Shown here: piece after piece, positions 8,238 through 13,196 of the stretch
Layout: each line of letters begins with the position of its first letter
How positions within the stretch are numbered: position 1 is the stretch's first letter
Assembly: GCA_028875655.1 (NCBI GenBank)
Contig: JAPPCX010000114.1
Span: 62,001-126,000 of the forward strand
DNA: 64,000 bases
Reading direction: 5' to 3'
From: Chloroflexota bacterium
Lineage (GTDB): Bacteria > Chloroflexota > Dehalococcoidia > Lucifugimonadales > UBA3495
Notes under the pieces: generated by a model
What the model saw: the letters and a program-made list of their open reading frames with translations, nothing else
Databases searched by the model: none
What the model was told of the DNA's origin: nothing
Translations under genes and position numbers: made by a program

Positions 8238-9152
8238 TCACTCGTCACGGCCGGCAATGCTCCCCGGATAAAACTTCAGCCAGGCCGAGCGGTAGGCGAT
8301 CATTGTGGGCAGTTCCCGCCCGCCGTCGCCGGTGGTCATCGCCCTGATCGCCCCCGTCGCGGCATCTCGCCACAGGGCTACCGGAGTTTCGCCAACGACG
8401 CCGGCAACCTCGCCGGCAATCACGCTTTCGTAGGGCCAGGCCACGGCCGAGTCGCCAACCACCACTCCCACCACGTGGTTTGAGCCGGGTCGGTTGCCGC
8501 GAAACGCCGGATACGGTTCGCTCACCACCAGCGCCGTAGTCTCAGGATGGGCCTCTGCCCATTTACTCCAGGTGGTAAGTTGCGAGGGAACGAGCGCCAG
8601 CGTCGCGCCAGCCTCCGGTCCGGTAAGCGCCATCCCCAGCGGTTGCGACCAGATGCTGCCCGTCGCGTGGTCGAACCACGTCATGGCACCTTTGTACAGC
8701 GCGCCCTGGTTTCCAAACACGGCCGTGGTTCCTTCAACGCGCCTCTCATGCACCAGGGCCGCGTAGCATCGTGGGCACCAGCTGACCAGCACGGGAACGC
8801 CGCCCACCACGTCGTTCACCAGCTCACGGGTGAACAGGATGCCCGTTGGGTAAGCGCGGGCGTCGCCGTTGATGGACAGCCCGATTACCAATTCGTCGTG
8901 GGGCAGGTCGGCGTCCGCTGCCGGCACGAATCGGGGGGCGTAGATTGGCGGGATGTCGTCGGGCAGCAGCAGCTGGACTAGTTCGGCGTCGGAGAACCCC
9001 GCTGCCGCCGGCCCTCGTGGCCCAATCGTTTCGTCGTATGCCCCGGCGAATTCACCGGCGTAGCTGGGCGGCGCCGGCGGCTGGGACGCGCCGCATCCGC
9101 CCATGGTGGACAGCAGGATGGCGCCCGCTGCGATTATGATGAGAACCGGCAA
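8238..9152 (-). CDS. DUF3179 domain lipoprotein
   Basis: 304 residues. A short signal peptide ending in MGGC gives a lipobox. The rest is one DUF3179 domain: IPPIYAPRFVPAADADL, VIGLSINGDARAYP, LVNDVVGGVPVLVSWCPRC, then FGNQGALYKGAMTWFDHATGS and SIWSQPLGMALTG. The function of the family is not established; the conserved W-C-P-x-C and following His/Asp positions suggest metal or redox chemistry (inference). It begins 7 bases after the stop of the zinc-type permease and so is very likely co-transcribed with the zinc uptake genes. The start is a TTG at 9152; no better codon precedes the signal peptide. Confidence 0.88.
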   Translation of the reverse strand: MPVLIIIAAGAILLSTMGGCGASQPPAPPSYAGEFAGAYDETIGPRGPAAAGFSDAELVQLLLPDDIPPIYAPRFVPAADADLPHDELVIGLSINGDARAYPTGILFTRELVNDVVGGVPVLVSWCPRCYAALVHERRVEGTTAVFGNQGALYKGAMTWFDHATGSIWSQPLGMALTGPEAGATLALVPSQLTTWSKWAEAHPETTALVVSEPYPAFRGNRPGSNHVVGVVVGDSAVAWPYESVIAGEVAGVVGETPVALWRDAATGAIRAMTTGDGGRELPTMIAYRSAWLKFYPGSIAGRDE

Positions 9153-9159
9153 AGTCCGG

Positions 9160-10035
9160 TCAGTCTCCCGCAGCGAGTGGTTCGGGTTGCGGTTCGCGGC
9201 GCCGCAGGAGGGAGAACAAGGCCCAGCGTCGCGGAGAAGCTGCCACGGTAATCAGGAGCAGGGCTACCGATACCACCACGATGGCCGGGCCGGTGGGCAG
9301 GTTGAGGTGGAACGACAGGTACAGCCCAATGACGATAGCGGCCAGTGCGACGACTACGGTAGCAAACATCATGCCGGCCAGGCGGCGGGCCAGCAGACTG
9401 CCCGTGACCGCCGGCACCACCAGCAGCGACATCACCATCACGTTGCCAACCGTTTTCAGCGCGGCCACGGTGGTCAGGGCCACCAGCAGGGGCAGCAGGT
9501 ATTCCAGGAATCTTACCGGAACACCCGACGCCTGCGCGACGGCGGAGTCATACGTGGTGAAAACGAGCTCTTTGTAGAGCAGCCGCACCACCAGCACAAC
9601 GCCGCCGGCCAGCAGCCCCACCGCAAGCACGTCATTCCATGAGGCGCCCAGCACATTGCCGAAGAGGATGCTGAGCAAATCGCCGGAGTAATTGTCGCTC
9701 ATGTTCATCAGGATTATGCCCAAGGCAAATCCGCCGGCGAAGAGCACTCCTATCACCGCGTCCAGACGTACTCCGGCCCGCCGGGACACCAGCGAAATGC
9801 CGAGGGACGCCGGCACTGCCCAGACCAGGGCGCCCAGGAAAATGTTGGCTCCGAACAGGAACGCCACTGCCATGCCGGTCAGGGCCGAGTGTGCTATGGC
9901 ATCCCCCAGGAACGCCATGCCCCGCAGTACGACGAATGTGCCGACCACTCCGCAGGCGGTGGCGGCGAGTGCGGACACCAGCAGCGCGCGCTGCATGAAG
10001 CCGTACTGCATGGGTTCAATGATCAGGTCGAGCAC
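9160..10035 (-). CDS. Zinc/manganese ABC transporter permease (ABC-3 family, ZnuB/AztB-like)
   Basis: 291 residues, eight or nine helices. MQRALLVSALAATACGVVGTFVVLRGMAFLGDAIAHSAL near the N-terminus is diagnostic for ABC-3 permeases, where the GDAIAHS stretch is almost invariant. It transports Zn2+ (or Mn2+) delivered by the binding protein encoded upstream. Start is a GTG at 10035 with AGGAGG 6 bases before it. The ATPase normally encoded between or next to binding protein and permease is absent here; a 28-bp palindromic repeat occupies the gap instead. Confidence 0.92.
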   Translation of the reverse strand: MLDLIIEPMQYGFMQRALLVSALAATACGVVGTFVVLRGMAFLGDAIAHSALTGMAVAFLFGANIFLGALVWAVPASLGISLVSRRAGVRLDAVIGVLFAGGFALGIILMNMSDNYSGDLLSILFGNVLGASWNDVLAVGLLAGGVVLVVRLLYKELVFTTYDSAVAQASGVPVRFLEYLLPLLVALTTVAALKTVGNVMVMSLLVVPAVTGSLLARRLAGMMFATVVVALAAIVIGLYLSFHLNLPTGPAIVVVSVALLLITVAASPRRWALFSLLRRREPQPEPLAAGD

Positions 10036-10110: not shown

Positions 10111-12555
10111 TCAGTGCAACAAGTCGTGCAGCGCGTCGGCATTCGCCCGCATCATGCCGATGTAGTCCGGGTAGGCATCGGTCGGGAGCGAGTGGATGAT
10201 GCCGACCTGGATGTTGGCATCGCGCGCAACCTGCTGTAGAGCGTCGTCGGAGAACTGCGATTCGGCGAAAACCGCCGGCAGCCCTTCGTCATTCACCAGG
10301 TCCAGCACCCGGGCGATGTCATCGGGCGAAACGTCTCCGCCGTGGCCGCCCACGAACGCCATCACCTCCATGTCGTAACGGGTCCCAAAGTAGCCGAAAG
10401 CGTCGTGGAAGGTGACGATGACCCGGTGTTCCTGCGGGATGTGCGACAGTTCCTCCGCTATGTAAGCGTCCAGAGCTTCCAGCTCGGCGATGTAGGCGGC
10501 GGCATTGTCCATATATTGGCCAGCGTGGTCGGGATCGGCGGCAACGAGGCCGTTGGCGATCTGGTTGACGTAGTGAACGACCATGCGGGGGTTCTGCCAG
10601 AAGTGTGGGTCCCCTGCGCCGTGGTCGTGGCCGTGGTCGTCGTGACCGTGGCCATCCGATGATTCCATCGACCCCGAACCATGCCCATGGTCGTCGTGGC
10701 CCTGCTCGGGGTGATCGCCCTCACCCAGGATACCGACGAAGGCGATTTTGGTGGGCGTCCCGTCAACGTCCCAGTGCCCCACGACTTCGAGGTCGTGGGA
10801 GTCCAGGGCCAGCACCTCTCCGGCGCCCGAGTCGGTGATGAAGATGTGCCCGGGGGCGGTGGCGATATGGGGTCGCGCCCAGAATCCGGGATCAATCTCA
10901 TCGGAAAGGAAACCGGACGCCGACGCCGTGAGATCGGCGTCGTGGGCGTCGTACATGCGGAGTTCTCCGTCGCTCATCACCACCAGCAGGTATTCACCGT
11001 CATAGCTGAGGGCCACCTGAATGGGGCGCAGGTCCTCGGTAGCGGGAATCAACTGGTCCATCTCGCCGTCTTCGGGTTCCACGATGTACAGGCCGACCGC
11101 GGAGCCCAGGGCGAAGAAGTGGTCGAGGCCATGGTAGCCCCAGACCGAAGTGAGCCGAAAATCGTCGGGCGAACCGGCCGGGCCGGCGATGAAATCGTGG
11201 TGGTAGTGTCCGTGGTCGGCCTCTACGACAAGGACGCCGCCGGTGCATCCGAAGACGGCCATGTGCCCGTTGCCGGCGTCGCCGTGCAGGTCGGGGCAGC
11301 CTTCGGCGGTGTACAGCACGTGGCCATCCAGGTCGCGGATTTCCGCGCCGATGGGCAGTCGGTAATCGCTAGGATTTTGCTCGAAATCCGGGTGCTGAAT
11401 GGTCACTGCGAACTTGTCGTCTTCCAGCGGCACCGCGGCGCCGTGGTGTGGGCCGGCGTTCATCATCACCGGGACGAAATCATCGCCCTCGTGCTCTAGT
11501 TCGTGCTCTTCAATCAGCGCGATGTCCCCGGAGCCGTCGTAGTAGATCGTCGCCCATTCCTCTCCGACGTACAGGTGAACCGGGCGGTCGCCGGTCAAGT
11601 TGGTCTGGAGCCGCTGAACGTCGGTTTCCACCAGATCGAAGTGGTCACCGTGTTCTTCCAGGTAGATGCCTCCGTCAAAAATGTGGACGGTGTTGGCGTC
11701 GGAGGACACGGCGATGGCGTAGCGTCCGCTGGCGGTGGGGTAAATGCGGCCGGCTCTCGAACCCAGGTCAAATTCGCCCTGGTGGGCATGGCCGGATTCC
11801 AGGTCGATCACCGAGAGGGAACCGGTTTCTCCGTCGCCGACGAGCAGCCGACCGTGCAGTTCGACCGCCTCTTCGTGCTCGTCATGGCCATGGTCGTCCT
11901 CCGGGAAGGCGAGCTCCACCAATTCCTGCGCATCCAACCCTTCTGACGCAACGACCCGGACTGCATCGGCAGACGCGGCGTTGTCGATCAACCCTTCCAC
12001 TTGCGCGGCCAGATTGGCGCCGTTGCTGACCAGCACCTGGGCCTCCGCGATGCGGACGCTGTCCTGCGGGGTGCTGTTCCAGGTGTGAACGTCGCTCCCG
12101 GTTGGGACGAGAGTATGGATGGCCACGCGGTTTCCGCCAACGTTAGCCACCAGGTCGGCCAGGAGAGCGTTGCCGGCGACCACGTTGATGGGTTCCGCGT
12201 CCGGTTGCGTCGCTGGCGCCGACTGTTGTGGCGCCGATTGCTGCGGGGCGGACTGTTGTGAGGCCGATTGCTGCGGGGCGGACTGTTGTGAGGCCGCAGT
12301 CTGGCCGCCGCTCGGCTGTGCTGGCGCGGTGGCGGATGCTGAACCCGCGGCAGCGTTGTCCGCGGGAGCGCTGGTTGGTGCCGTACCTGCGGGGGCAGAC
12401 GAATCAGCCGGAGGGAGCGCTGAATCGTCGCCTCCGCAGGCGGTCAAGAGGAGCGCGGCTGCCAGCATGGCGGCAAAAAAGGCCGCCAGCAGCAGCCTGC
12501 GAATTGGCGCAGACGATCTGGCAGCAGCGGGTAAAGGGTTGGACCGGTTGCTCAT
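10111..12555 (-). CDS. Zinc-binding lipoprotein (ZnuA/AztC type) with inserted AztD-like beta-propeller
   Basis: 814 residues from ATG 12555 (GGAG 9 bases upstream; 12597 is a longer alternative). The lipobox LTAC puts the lipidated Cys at residue 40, followed by a Gln/Ser-rich tether. The first lobe of a cluster 9 (ZnuA) binding protein starts at about 122 (INVVAGNALLADLV) with zinc ligand His157 in SDVHTW. At about residue 220 a His/Asp stretch opens into a propeller (about 234-609) resembling the zinc chaperone AztD: LHGRLLVGD, EEHGDHFDL, HHGAAVPL, and two cysteines (C420, C437) in CPDLHGDAG/FGC. A second His-rich run leads back into the SBP at DPHFWQNP (His651), then FHDAFGYF (His717). 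ZnuA proteins are normally about 300 residues and AztC and AztD are separate. The split position matches the ZnuA flexible His loop. Confidence 0.88.
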   Translation of the reverse strand: MSNRSNPLPAAARSSAPIRRLLLAAFFAAMLAAALLLTACGGDDSALPPADSSAPAGTAPTSAPADNAAAGSASATAPAQPSGGQTAASQQSAPQQSASQQSAPQQSAPQQSAPATQPDAEPINVVAGNALLADLVANVGGNRVAIHTLVPTGSDVHTWNSTPQDSVRIAEAQVLVSNGANLAAQVEGLIDNAASADAVRVVASEGLDAQELVELAFPEDDHGHDEHEEAVELHGRLLVGDGETGSLSVIDLESGHAHQGEFDLGSRAGRIYPTASGRYAIAVSSDANTVHIFDGGIYLEEHGDHFDLVETDVQRLQTNLTGDRPVHLYVGEEWATIYYDGSGDIALIEEHELEHEGDDFVPVMMNAGPHHGAAVPLEDDKFAVTIQHPDFEQNPSDYRLPIGAEIRDLDGHVLYTAEGCPDLHGDAGNGHMAVFGCTGGVLVVEADHGHYHHDFIAGPAGSPDDFRLTSVWGYHGLDHFFALGSAVGLYIVEPEDGEMDQLIPATEDLRPIQVALSYDGEYLLVVMSDGELRMYDAHDADLTASASGFLSDEIDPGFWARPHIATAPGHIFITDSGAGEVLALDSHDLEVVGHWDVDGTPTKIAFVGILGEGDHPEQGHDDHGHGSGSMESSDGHGHDDHGHDHGAGDPHFWQNPRMVVHYVNQIANGLVAADPDHAGQYMDNAAAYIAELEALDAYIAEELSHIPQEHRVIVTFHDAFGYFGTRYDMEVMAFVGGHGGDVSPDDIARVLDLVNDEGLPAVFAESQFSDDALQQVARDANIQVGIIHSLPTDAYPDYIGMMRANADALHDLLH
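12211..12300 (-). repeat. Three 30-bp tandem units in the lipoprotein tether
   Basis: Units at 12211-12240, 12241-12270 and 12271-12300; the second and third are nearly identical over their first 26 bases and the first is diverged. They encode the repeated S-A-P/S-Q-Q blocks between the lipobox and the zinc-binding domain. The tether length may vary by unit slippage. Confidence 0.75.
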
Positions 12556-12603
12556 TGTGTTCGACTCCATGGTTGCAAGAGTAGGTTCTGGTACCAAGAT
12601 GAA

Positions 12604-12640
12604 GTATCAATAAGATACAAATACCGATATACAGTATCAA
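12604..12640 (-). promoter_or_regulatory. Zur-like operator overlapping the zinc-binding-protein promoter
   Basis: Minus strand: TTGATA (12640-12635) and TATCTT (12617-12612) are spaced by 17 bases and form a plausible sigma70 promoter. The sequence TTGATACTGTATATCGGTAT (from 12640 down) covers it and matches 18 of 20 bases, allowing for the centre, with the element before the Fur-family gene. A further GTATC half-site lies at 12604-12608. Repression by zinc-loaded Zur would block RNA polymerase directly. The assignment to Zur is inference from position. Confidence 0.65.
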
Positions 12641-12684: not shown

Positions 12685-13149
12685 TCAGTCAGAGCACTCG
12701 CCGCAGCGACCGTAAACTTCCAGCCAATGCCCGCTCATCCGGAAACCTGACCGGTCAGCGGCGGCGCGAAGTATGTCCTCTACGTCACAGTCTATCAAAT
12801 CGGCGGATGCGCCGCAGATGGCGCAGAGCATGTGGTGATGATGCCCCTGGTGGCTGAGCTGGTATCGCAGTTCCCGATCTTCCAGAAGCACCCGGCAGAC
12901 CTGATCGGTTTCCACCAGCAATCGGAGGCCCCGATACACCGTGGCCCGGCCGACGCATGGCAACGCCGTGCACAGCTCCTCTGCGGTGAAGGGACGTTCC
13001 TGGGCGGCAGCGGCGGCGATGACCAGGCGACGCGGCTCGGTATCCCGGTAGCCTTGATGCGCCAACTGGGCAACAATGTCGTCTACCACGGCAGCGGAGG
13101 CCGGGGTGGGATGGTCATGCCCTTTGTGTTTTGCGGTGCTGGAGATCAT
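12685..13149 (-). CDS. zur: Fur-family transcriptional repressor, probably zinc uptake regulator
   Basis: 154 residues. An N-terminal winged helix (FTAEELCTALPCVGRATVYRGLRLL, recognition helix near residues 60-75) is followed by the dimerisation domain with the H-x-H-H-type metal site (HQGHHHHMLC) and two C-x-x-C pairs (CAIC, CGEC) for structural zinc. It is adjacent to zinc uptake genes on the same strand, which favours Zur over Fur or PerR. The ATG at 13149 has no ribosome site and sits about 20 bases after a good -10 box, so the mRNA is probably leaderless or has a very short leader. Likely autoregulated through the operator at 13151. Confidence 0.85.
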   Translation of the reverse strand: MISSTAKHKGHDHPTPASAAVVDDIVAQLAHQGYRDTEPRRLVIAAAAAQERPFTAEELCTALPCVGRATVYRGLRLLVETDQVCRVLLEDRELRYQLSHQGHHHHMLCAICGASADLIDCDVEDILRAAADRSGFRMSGHWLEVYGRCGECSD

Positions 13150-13150
13150 T

Positions 13151-13196
13151 TTGATACTGCGTATCTGTATTTTATGCCAGGACGCCGGTTTGTCAA
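13151..13196 (-). promoter_or_regulatory. Promoter and operator of the Fur-family gene
   Basis: Minus strand: TTGACA (13196-13191), 16 bases, TAAAAT (13174-13169). Between the -10 box and the start codon lies the operator, read on the plus strand as TTGATACTGCGTATCTGTAT from 13151. It contains the dyad GATAC-TGC-GTATC at 13153-13165. It would cover the transcription start, giving autorepression. Confidence 0.65.

Follow-up and report, generated by a model that had tools for sequence, protein, structure and literature searches.

An AztD-type beta-propeller interrupts the His-rich loop of a zinc-type binding lipoprotein in Dehalococcoidia

In the AztABCD system of Paracoccus denitrificans (PDB 5w56/5w57, 6ck1, 6cmk), AztD is a separate, secreted protein. 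It gives zinc only from its site 2, which the terminal strands build together with a hairpin; a loop of AztC is essential for AztD-to-AztC transfer, and in the published docking model this loop enters the AztD pore (PMC6689063, PMC7463823). AdcA of Streptococcus pneumoniae joins a zinc substrate-binding protein (SBP) to an accessory zinc-binding domain in one lipoprotein, with a His-rich loop at the domain interface; its fused ZinT domain and the His-rich loop aid under zinc limitation, and transfer in cis has been suggested (PMC7858048). SBPs of the TIGR03772 anchored-repeat type, found in Actinobacteria, are AztC-like and carry a foreign extracellular domain in the same loop, before a DPHxW motif. 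The AdcA fusion and the TIGR03772 proteins are precedents in principle for zinc SBPs equipped with a further domain.

We analyzed a window of 64,000 nucleotides from a Chloroflexota bacterium of the class Dehalococcoidia (assembly GCA_028875655.1, contig JAPPCX010000114.1, positions 62,001 to 126,000). A sequence-only reading had claimed an open reading frame at 10111-12555 encoding a cluster 9 binding protein split at its His-rich loop by a propeller of about 375 residues, with His/Asp runs on both sides. Our analysis confirmed that the minus-strand gene at 10111-12555 encodes a lipoprotein in which a beta-propeller of the AztD type interrupts the His-rich loop of a cluster A-I metal-binding protein. 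The frame is present at those coordinates, the insert measures about 379 residues, and the flanking runs, found at residues 231-245 and 625-659, are Glu-rich as well. Residues are numbered on the 828-aa form starting at TTG 12597; numbers on the ATG form are lower by 14. The features of the locus are as follows.

8238..9152, minus strand: DUF3179 protein, directly behind the permease
9160..10035, minus strand: ABC-3 metal permease, AztB-like (AztB 205 bits, cut-off 280), downstream of the fusion
10111..12555, minus strand: fused lipoprotein gene (open frame, homologues), 814 codons from ATG 12555
10114..10620, minus strand: SBP C-terminal half, residues 660-828 (ZnuA/AztC profiles)
10603-10605 and 10405-10407, minus strand: SBP ligands H665 and H731, both invariant in 68/68 homologues
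10621..10725, minus strand: right His-rich linker, residues 625-659, with nine His, including H629 and H634 (sequence)
10726..11862, minus strand: AztD-type beta-propeller, residues 246-624 (NF038015, 6ck1, fold Z 42.0)
11284..11286, minus strand: zinc site 1 ligand H438 (P. denitrificans AztD H218), 64/68
11443..11445, minus strand: zinc site 1 ligand H385 (AztD H167), 65/68
11575..11577, minus strand: zinc site 1 ligand H341 (AztD H124), 67/68
11635..11652, minus strand: zinc site 2 motif HGDHFD with H316, H319 and D321 (AztD H99, H102 and D104), kept in 67-68/68
11863..11907, minus strand: left His/Asp/Glu-rich linker, residues 231-245, with three His (sequence; pLDDT under 50 in the model)
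11908..12204, minus strand: SBP N-terminal half, residues 132-230 (ZnuA/AztC profiles; locally confident model)
12085-12087, minus strand: SBP metal ligand H171, within the N-terminal half
12436..12555, minus strand: lipoprotein signal peptide ending in LLTAC, Cys54 codon at 12436-12438 (sequence)
12626..12638, plus strand: Fur-family operator-like palindrome GATATACAGTATC, one mismatch, before the fusion
12685..13149, minus strand: Fur-family regulator (Pfam FUR, E 1e-18), upstream of the fusion
13153..13165, plus strand: Fur-family operator-like palindrome GATACTGCGTATC, before the regulator

The minus-strand frame 10111-12597 is open over 828 codons, the TTG giving the longest frame. Starting at ATG 12555, with a Shine-Dalgarno-like GGAG 9 nt upstream, the protein has 814 aa. 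The lipobox Cys is kept in 63 of the 68 fused homologues described below, and a Ser/Ala/Gln-rich stretch separates Cys54 from the SBP.

Both SBP halves fall consecutively on a single ZnuA or AztC profile, which bears out the claimed split of one binding protein. Pfam ZnuA (PF01297) matches the fusion in two stretches (E 1e-72), which in the whole-genome scan cover, in order, positions 1-100 and 87-261 of 263. On the NCBIfam AztC profile (NF040870; 186.7 bits, below the curated cut-off of 350), the first flank corresponds to positions 1-85 and the second to 96-275 of 277. Given this split at 85/96, little or no SBP sequence is missing. As judged from the alignments, the break sits in the metal-sampling loop before DPHFW. 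Since the Foldseek rows for the SBP part spanned only about 170 columns and the VIA list was filled by propellers, the joining of the lobes is drawn from the sequence and from the contiguous homologue L046, at the same locus in a congener, where the flanks run unbroken as one SBP. The protein has three SBP His ligands, as in zinc-type members; besides H665 and H731, H171 is invariant in both alignments. No residue of the fusion aligns with Asp279, the fourth ligand of AztC, and this position varies across the 68 homologues. The N-terminal flank alone scored best with MntC. Manganese specificity is less likely, given the His at the third SBP ligand position and the His-rich loops.

The insert had been taken for a relative of AztD, and sequence match, predicted fold and metal ligands agree on this. 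Residues 246-624 match positions 1-354 of 356 of the NCBIfam AztD profile NF038015 (E 4e-39); the score, about 134.3 bits, is below the curated cut-off of 400, though it extends over the full profile length. The insert also matches the AztD of PDB 6ck1 (E 6e-34). When the predicted propeller was aligned on 6ck1 with VIA, 365 residues were superimposed at 2.7 rmsd with a Z score of 42.0, as opposed to 25 for the next family, and the predicted fold is that of an AztD-type eight-bladed propeller. Ligands were mapped through a residue alignment of the fusion to 6ck1, and their conservation was counted among the 68 fused homologues. All six side-chain ligands of sites 1 and 2 within the folded domain are kept, as is the disulfide C434-C451, and the residues of both sites and the disulfide are conserved in 64-68 of 68. 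The C-terminal AztD ligand H408 maps to about residue 628, so that H629 (44/68) and H634 (63/68), early in the right linker, are only approximate counterparts. The propeller is under purifying selection, with dN/dS of 0.07-0.26 over nine pairs, similar to the SBP.

An AlphaFold model built from 22 fused sequences reached a pLDDT of 80.7 and a pTM of 0.57, and a second one built from 64 sequences reached 87.2 and 0.59, with SBP halves and propeller locally confident. Both linkers are disordered in both models. The structural check proposed earlier is borne out in part: the propeller is predicted to fold as AztD, and the SBP halves are locally confident. The relative orientation of propeller and SBP, and with it the facing of the propeller His sites toward the SBP cleft, is not confidently predicted.

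With AztABCD, the locus has in common both protein families, both AztD zinc sites and the disulfide, the three SBP His ligands, an AztB-like permease, and a Fur-family neighbor. In contrast to that system, the AztD-type domain is nested in the AztC-type loop, the fusion and the permease score below the NCBIfam cut-offs for AztC, AztD, and AztB, AztC Asp279 is unaligned, and a linked ATPase is missing in the window's genus. AdcA carries a lipocalin-like ZinT at its C-terminus via an 11-residue linker, whereas here an AztD propeller lies inside the loop and is exchanged between SBPs. There is no AdcA-type C-terminal ZinT in the fusion, whose sequence ends with the SBP C-lobe and matches NF033605 in the SBP part only. 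In TIGR03772 proteins the insert is a choice-of-anchor M/TIGR03769 domain, and in the example L143 it has no long flanking His-rich linkers, unlike the fusion, which scores 150.6 bits against TIGR03772 (curated cut-off, 350.45) and whose insert is AztD. The loop-inserted domain of L143 (1372-2982; Phytoactinopolyspora) recurs in the next gene, a surface protein.

The regulator upstream of the fusion is probably Zur-like. We searched near gene starts for the palindrome GATACN3GTATC with at most one mismatch. It was found at 27 of 65 fused genes (0.3 in dinucleotide shuffles) and at 31 of 60 unfused SBPs; for both groups the comparison is with starts of control ORFs from these loci, where 16 of 320 had it. 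These boxes point to Fur-family control. At the only near-match inspected elsewhere in the genome (C56), there was no zinc gene. An ATPase is not adjacent to the fusion in the window's genus; in sister lineages, ATPase and permease follow right behind it. The best ATPase candidate (C34) is unlinked, 52% identical to a linked one, and has counterparts in three congeners; the region of the first candidate (L155) held no other zinc gene. The genome has a second ZnuA-family SBP (L001). The DUF3179 gene is also found beside the unfused SBP of a congener (G003), and a metal-handling role for it would be a guess.

We evaluated how widespread the fusion is. It had been treated as a single case and proved to be a recurrent architecture: a count with three profiles yielded 68 distinct fused ORFs, 60 SBPs without a propeller, and 21 propellers outside SBPs. 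The fused ORFs come mostly from Dehalococcoidia and from many assemblies, single-contig genomes included, and all 68 have His-rich linkers on both sides; the survey found orthologous junctions. Of the 14 species genomes in the window's genus, 12 have the fusion or its propeller, and so do other genera and families. Across the class, 39 of 393 genomes gave 45 propeller matches: 31 are in frames at least 763 aa long, and 14 are in shorter frames that encode AztD only. A phylum scan matched 5 of 400 genomes, two of them outside the class (L141, L142). Among 84,980 species genomes, more fused loci were found, nearly all in Dehalococcoidia/SAR202 or unclassified Chloroflexota; AztD outside an SBP occurred in Poribacteria, Gammaproteobacteria, and one actinobacterium. 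Open-access papers on AztD fusions, TIGR03772, SAR202 zinc uptake, and loop insertions contained nothing on this architecture. The architecture is real, recurrent, and undescribed in the open-access literature searched.

The propeller is dispensable for some species, since propeller-free SBPs occur at the same locus. In G003, a single-contig genome of the same genus, the locus (fur, SBP, permease, DUF3179) encodes a 379-aa SBP without a propeller, 56 and 70% identical to the two flanks in the window. In G236, a fused 779-aa SBP adjoins an unfused 368-aa paralogue in tandem; the two align collinearly on both sides, and the insert lies within a DEHGHEDE-type repeat.

Propeller and SBP have separate histories. 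On the SBP tree, the fused state changes 10 times, at least 6 of them forced by well supported branches, and the SBPs of the window's genus are sister to 12 unfused SBPs. The propellers of this genus belong to a 100%-supported clade whose other members sit on SBPs only about 34% identical. Holding together the fused members of that propeller clade was rejected by the SBP data (p 2.6e-5), holding together one SBP clade was rejected by the propeller data (p 2.5e-126), and a single clade of all fused propellers was rejected as well (p 7e-4); the groups were named after the trees had been seen, which makes all three values optimistic. The SBPs of L133 and L081 are 79% identical and their propellers 34%; for L123 and L130 the values are 32 and 82%. 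In such discordant pairs, the identity switch falls at the His-rich linkers. Faster SBP evolution was rejected as the cause, because the modules evolve alike within the genus (window versus L010, 78/77%; versus L013, 73/73%) and the discordance goes both ways. The L170 propeller clusters with AztD of Poribacteria, which suggests an independent insertion, although the branches involved are long.

Judged from these sequences, the His-rich loop acts as a slot in which a zinc-chaperone cassette can be exchanged. Chaperone-equipped zinc SBPs are known, and this history of exchange is the most surprising part. Identical DNA words common to the two linkers are longer than those of control windows (median 10 versus 6.8 nt), an excess due in part simply to the shared His-rich code; in the window, a 15/16-nt match lies across the propeller. 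Such likeness offers a possible route for cassette exchange. A broader and tentative proposal is that zinc SBPs in general use their His-rich loop as a plug-in slot, in which metal-capturing modules would be repeatedly inserted, swapped, and lost by recombination within His-rich coding repeats, and in which the same repeats would relay metal from module to receptor with no co-adapted interface needed. In Chloroflexota, these modules would include AztD propellers from two or more distant lineages; in Actinobacteria, the TIGR03769-type domain.

In L026, L175, and L179, the SBP loop holds short helical-looking repeats (IHEVEEGEIS type) and no propeller, as other occupants of the slot. AztD propellers also occur in other contexts. 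L071:5224-8001 (OY282457.1, labelled Candidatus Binatia) has a propeller about 67% identical to that of the window, with His-rich linkers, in a 925-aa host with no ZnuA match whose C-terminal flank weakly matches a YVTN propeller (1l0q); it is perhaps a propeller nested in a propeller. L097:4246-7221 encodes a 991-aa lipoprotein that has a Val/Glu-rich repeat stalk and two tandem AztD propellers. In Poribacteria (L101:5824-8178, L102, L107), AztD has a C-terminal type IX secretion-like tail and is encoded about 1.6 kb from an unfused SBP.

The fusion is read most economically as handing over zinc in cis, a plausible transfer that the sequence-only reading had also proposed and to which we assign a probability of roughly 55%. 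The protein would be a zinc-uptake receptor anchored in the membrane, with an AztD-type metallochaperone tethered within the loop of a cluster A-I SBP by flexible His-rich linkers on either side. The propeller would capture zinc at site 2. Since the insertion is made through the propeller's own N- and C-termini, whose strands form site 2, this site would lie beside both junctions at the SBP mouth, tied by the nine-His tract to H665. From there, zinc would reach the SBP site either directly or by way of the tract on the right, H629 to H659, which ends just before H665, and the SBP would then feed the ABC-3 permease. The loop had earlier been proposed as a co-adapted docking site. This is disfavored, given propellers about 34% identical in SBPs 79% identical and the reverse, the disordered linkers, and the low pTM of both models, which agree better with a flexible tether or a His relay. 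Because diverged SBPs exchange propellers, a finely co-adapted interface is probably not what transfer depends on; the tether, by raising the local concentration, and the His-rich linkers would suffice. For the cis reading speak the AztD match and fold, the conserved ligands of propeller and SBP, the His-rich linkers of all 68 homologues, purifying selection, the Fur-family boxes, the permease and, in sister lineages, the ATPase of the operon, as well as the published roles of AztD site 2 and the AztC loop. Against the cis reading count the unpredicted orientation, AztC Asp279 without an aligned counterpart, and the propeller-free SBPs at the same locus. By analogy with the docking model, a loop that carries the propeller may also be unable to enter its own propeller's pore.

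Buffering without direct transfer is a serious rival, although we consider it less likely. Propeller and linkers would enlarge zinc capture and storage at the cell surface, and zinc would simply dissociate and rebind to load the SBP. In favor of this, many linkers are of great length and rich in His, with up to 18 His, propellers are exchanged without SBP co-adaptation, and each accessory region of AdcA is dispensable by itself and helps to recruit zinc only when zinc is limiting (PMC7858048). Against it, the published donor site 2 is conserved in 67-68 of 68 homologues, and the insertion is always in the single loop with a known part in AztD-to-AztC transfer and never at a terminus.

Transfer in trans is less probable still. 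Here the propeller would donate to the SBP of another molecule or to the cell's other zinc SBP (L001), and the fusion would merely co-localize donor and acceptor. A possible misfit between a propeller-bearing loop and the pore of that propeller would favor this, as do the second ZnuA-family SBP and two genomes (G290, G252) that each keep a fused and an AztD-only protein. Yet long flexible tethers would make encounters in cis far more frequent, and most fused genomes have no standalone AztD; in the window's own, a genome profile search found no second AztD match. Finally, misassembly or an accidental fusion in a single genome is ruled out by the survey: although one same-genus assembly (L014/L060) has a frame broken between the SBP N-terminal half and the propeller, G022 has these parts in separate ORFs, and some contigs end within the fused gene, there are 68 distinct fused ORFs, single-contig genomes among them, with orthologous junctions and purifying selection. 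The G022 locus (L053:7912-11464), where the ORF of the SBP N-terminal half lies 1.2 kb from an ORF with the propeller and the SBP C-terminal half, is a broken or interrupted second copy.

Direct protein-to-protein zinc transfer is hard to study, as donor and acceptor meet slowly and transiently. The fusion ties donor and acceptor together in one molecule and would let direct hand-over be studied intramolecularly, with natural controls at hand in the propeller-free versions of G003 and G236 and in the natural propeller swaps. In the little-known SAR202-type Dehalococcoidia, the sampling loop of a zinc receptor acts as an evolutionary slot for chaperone modules.
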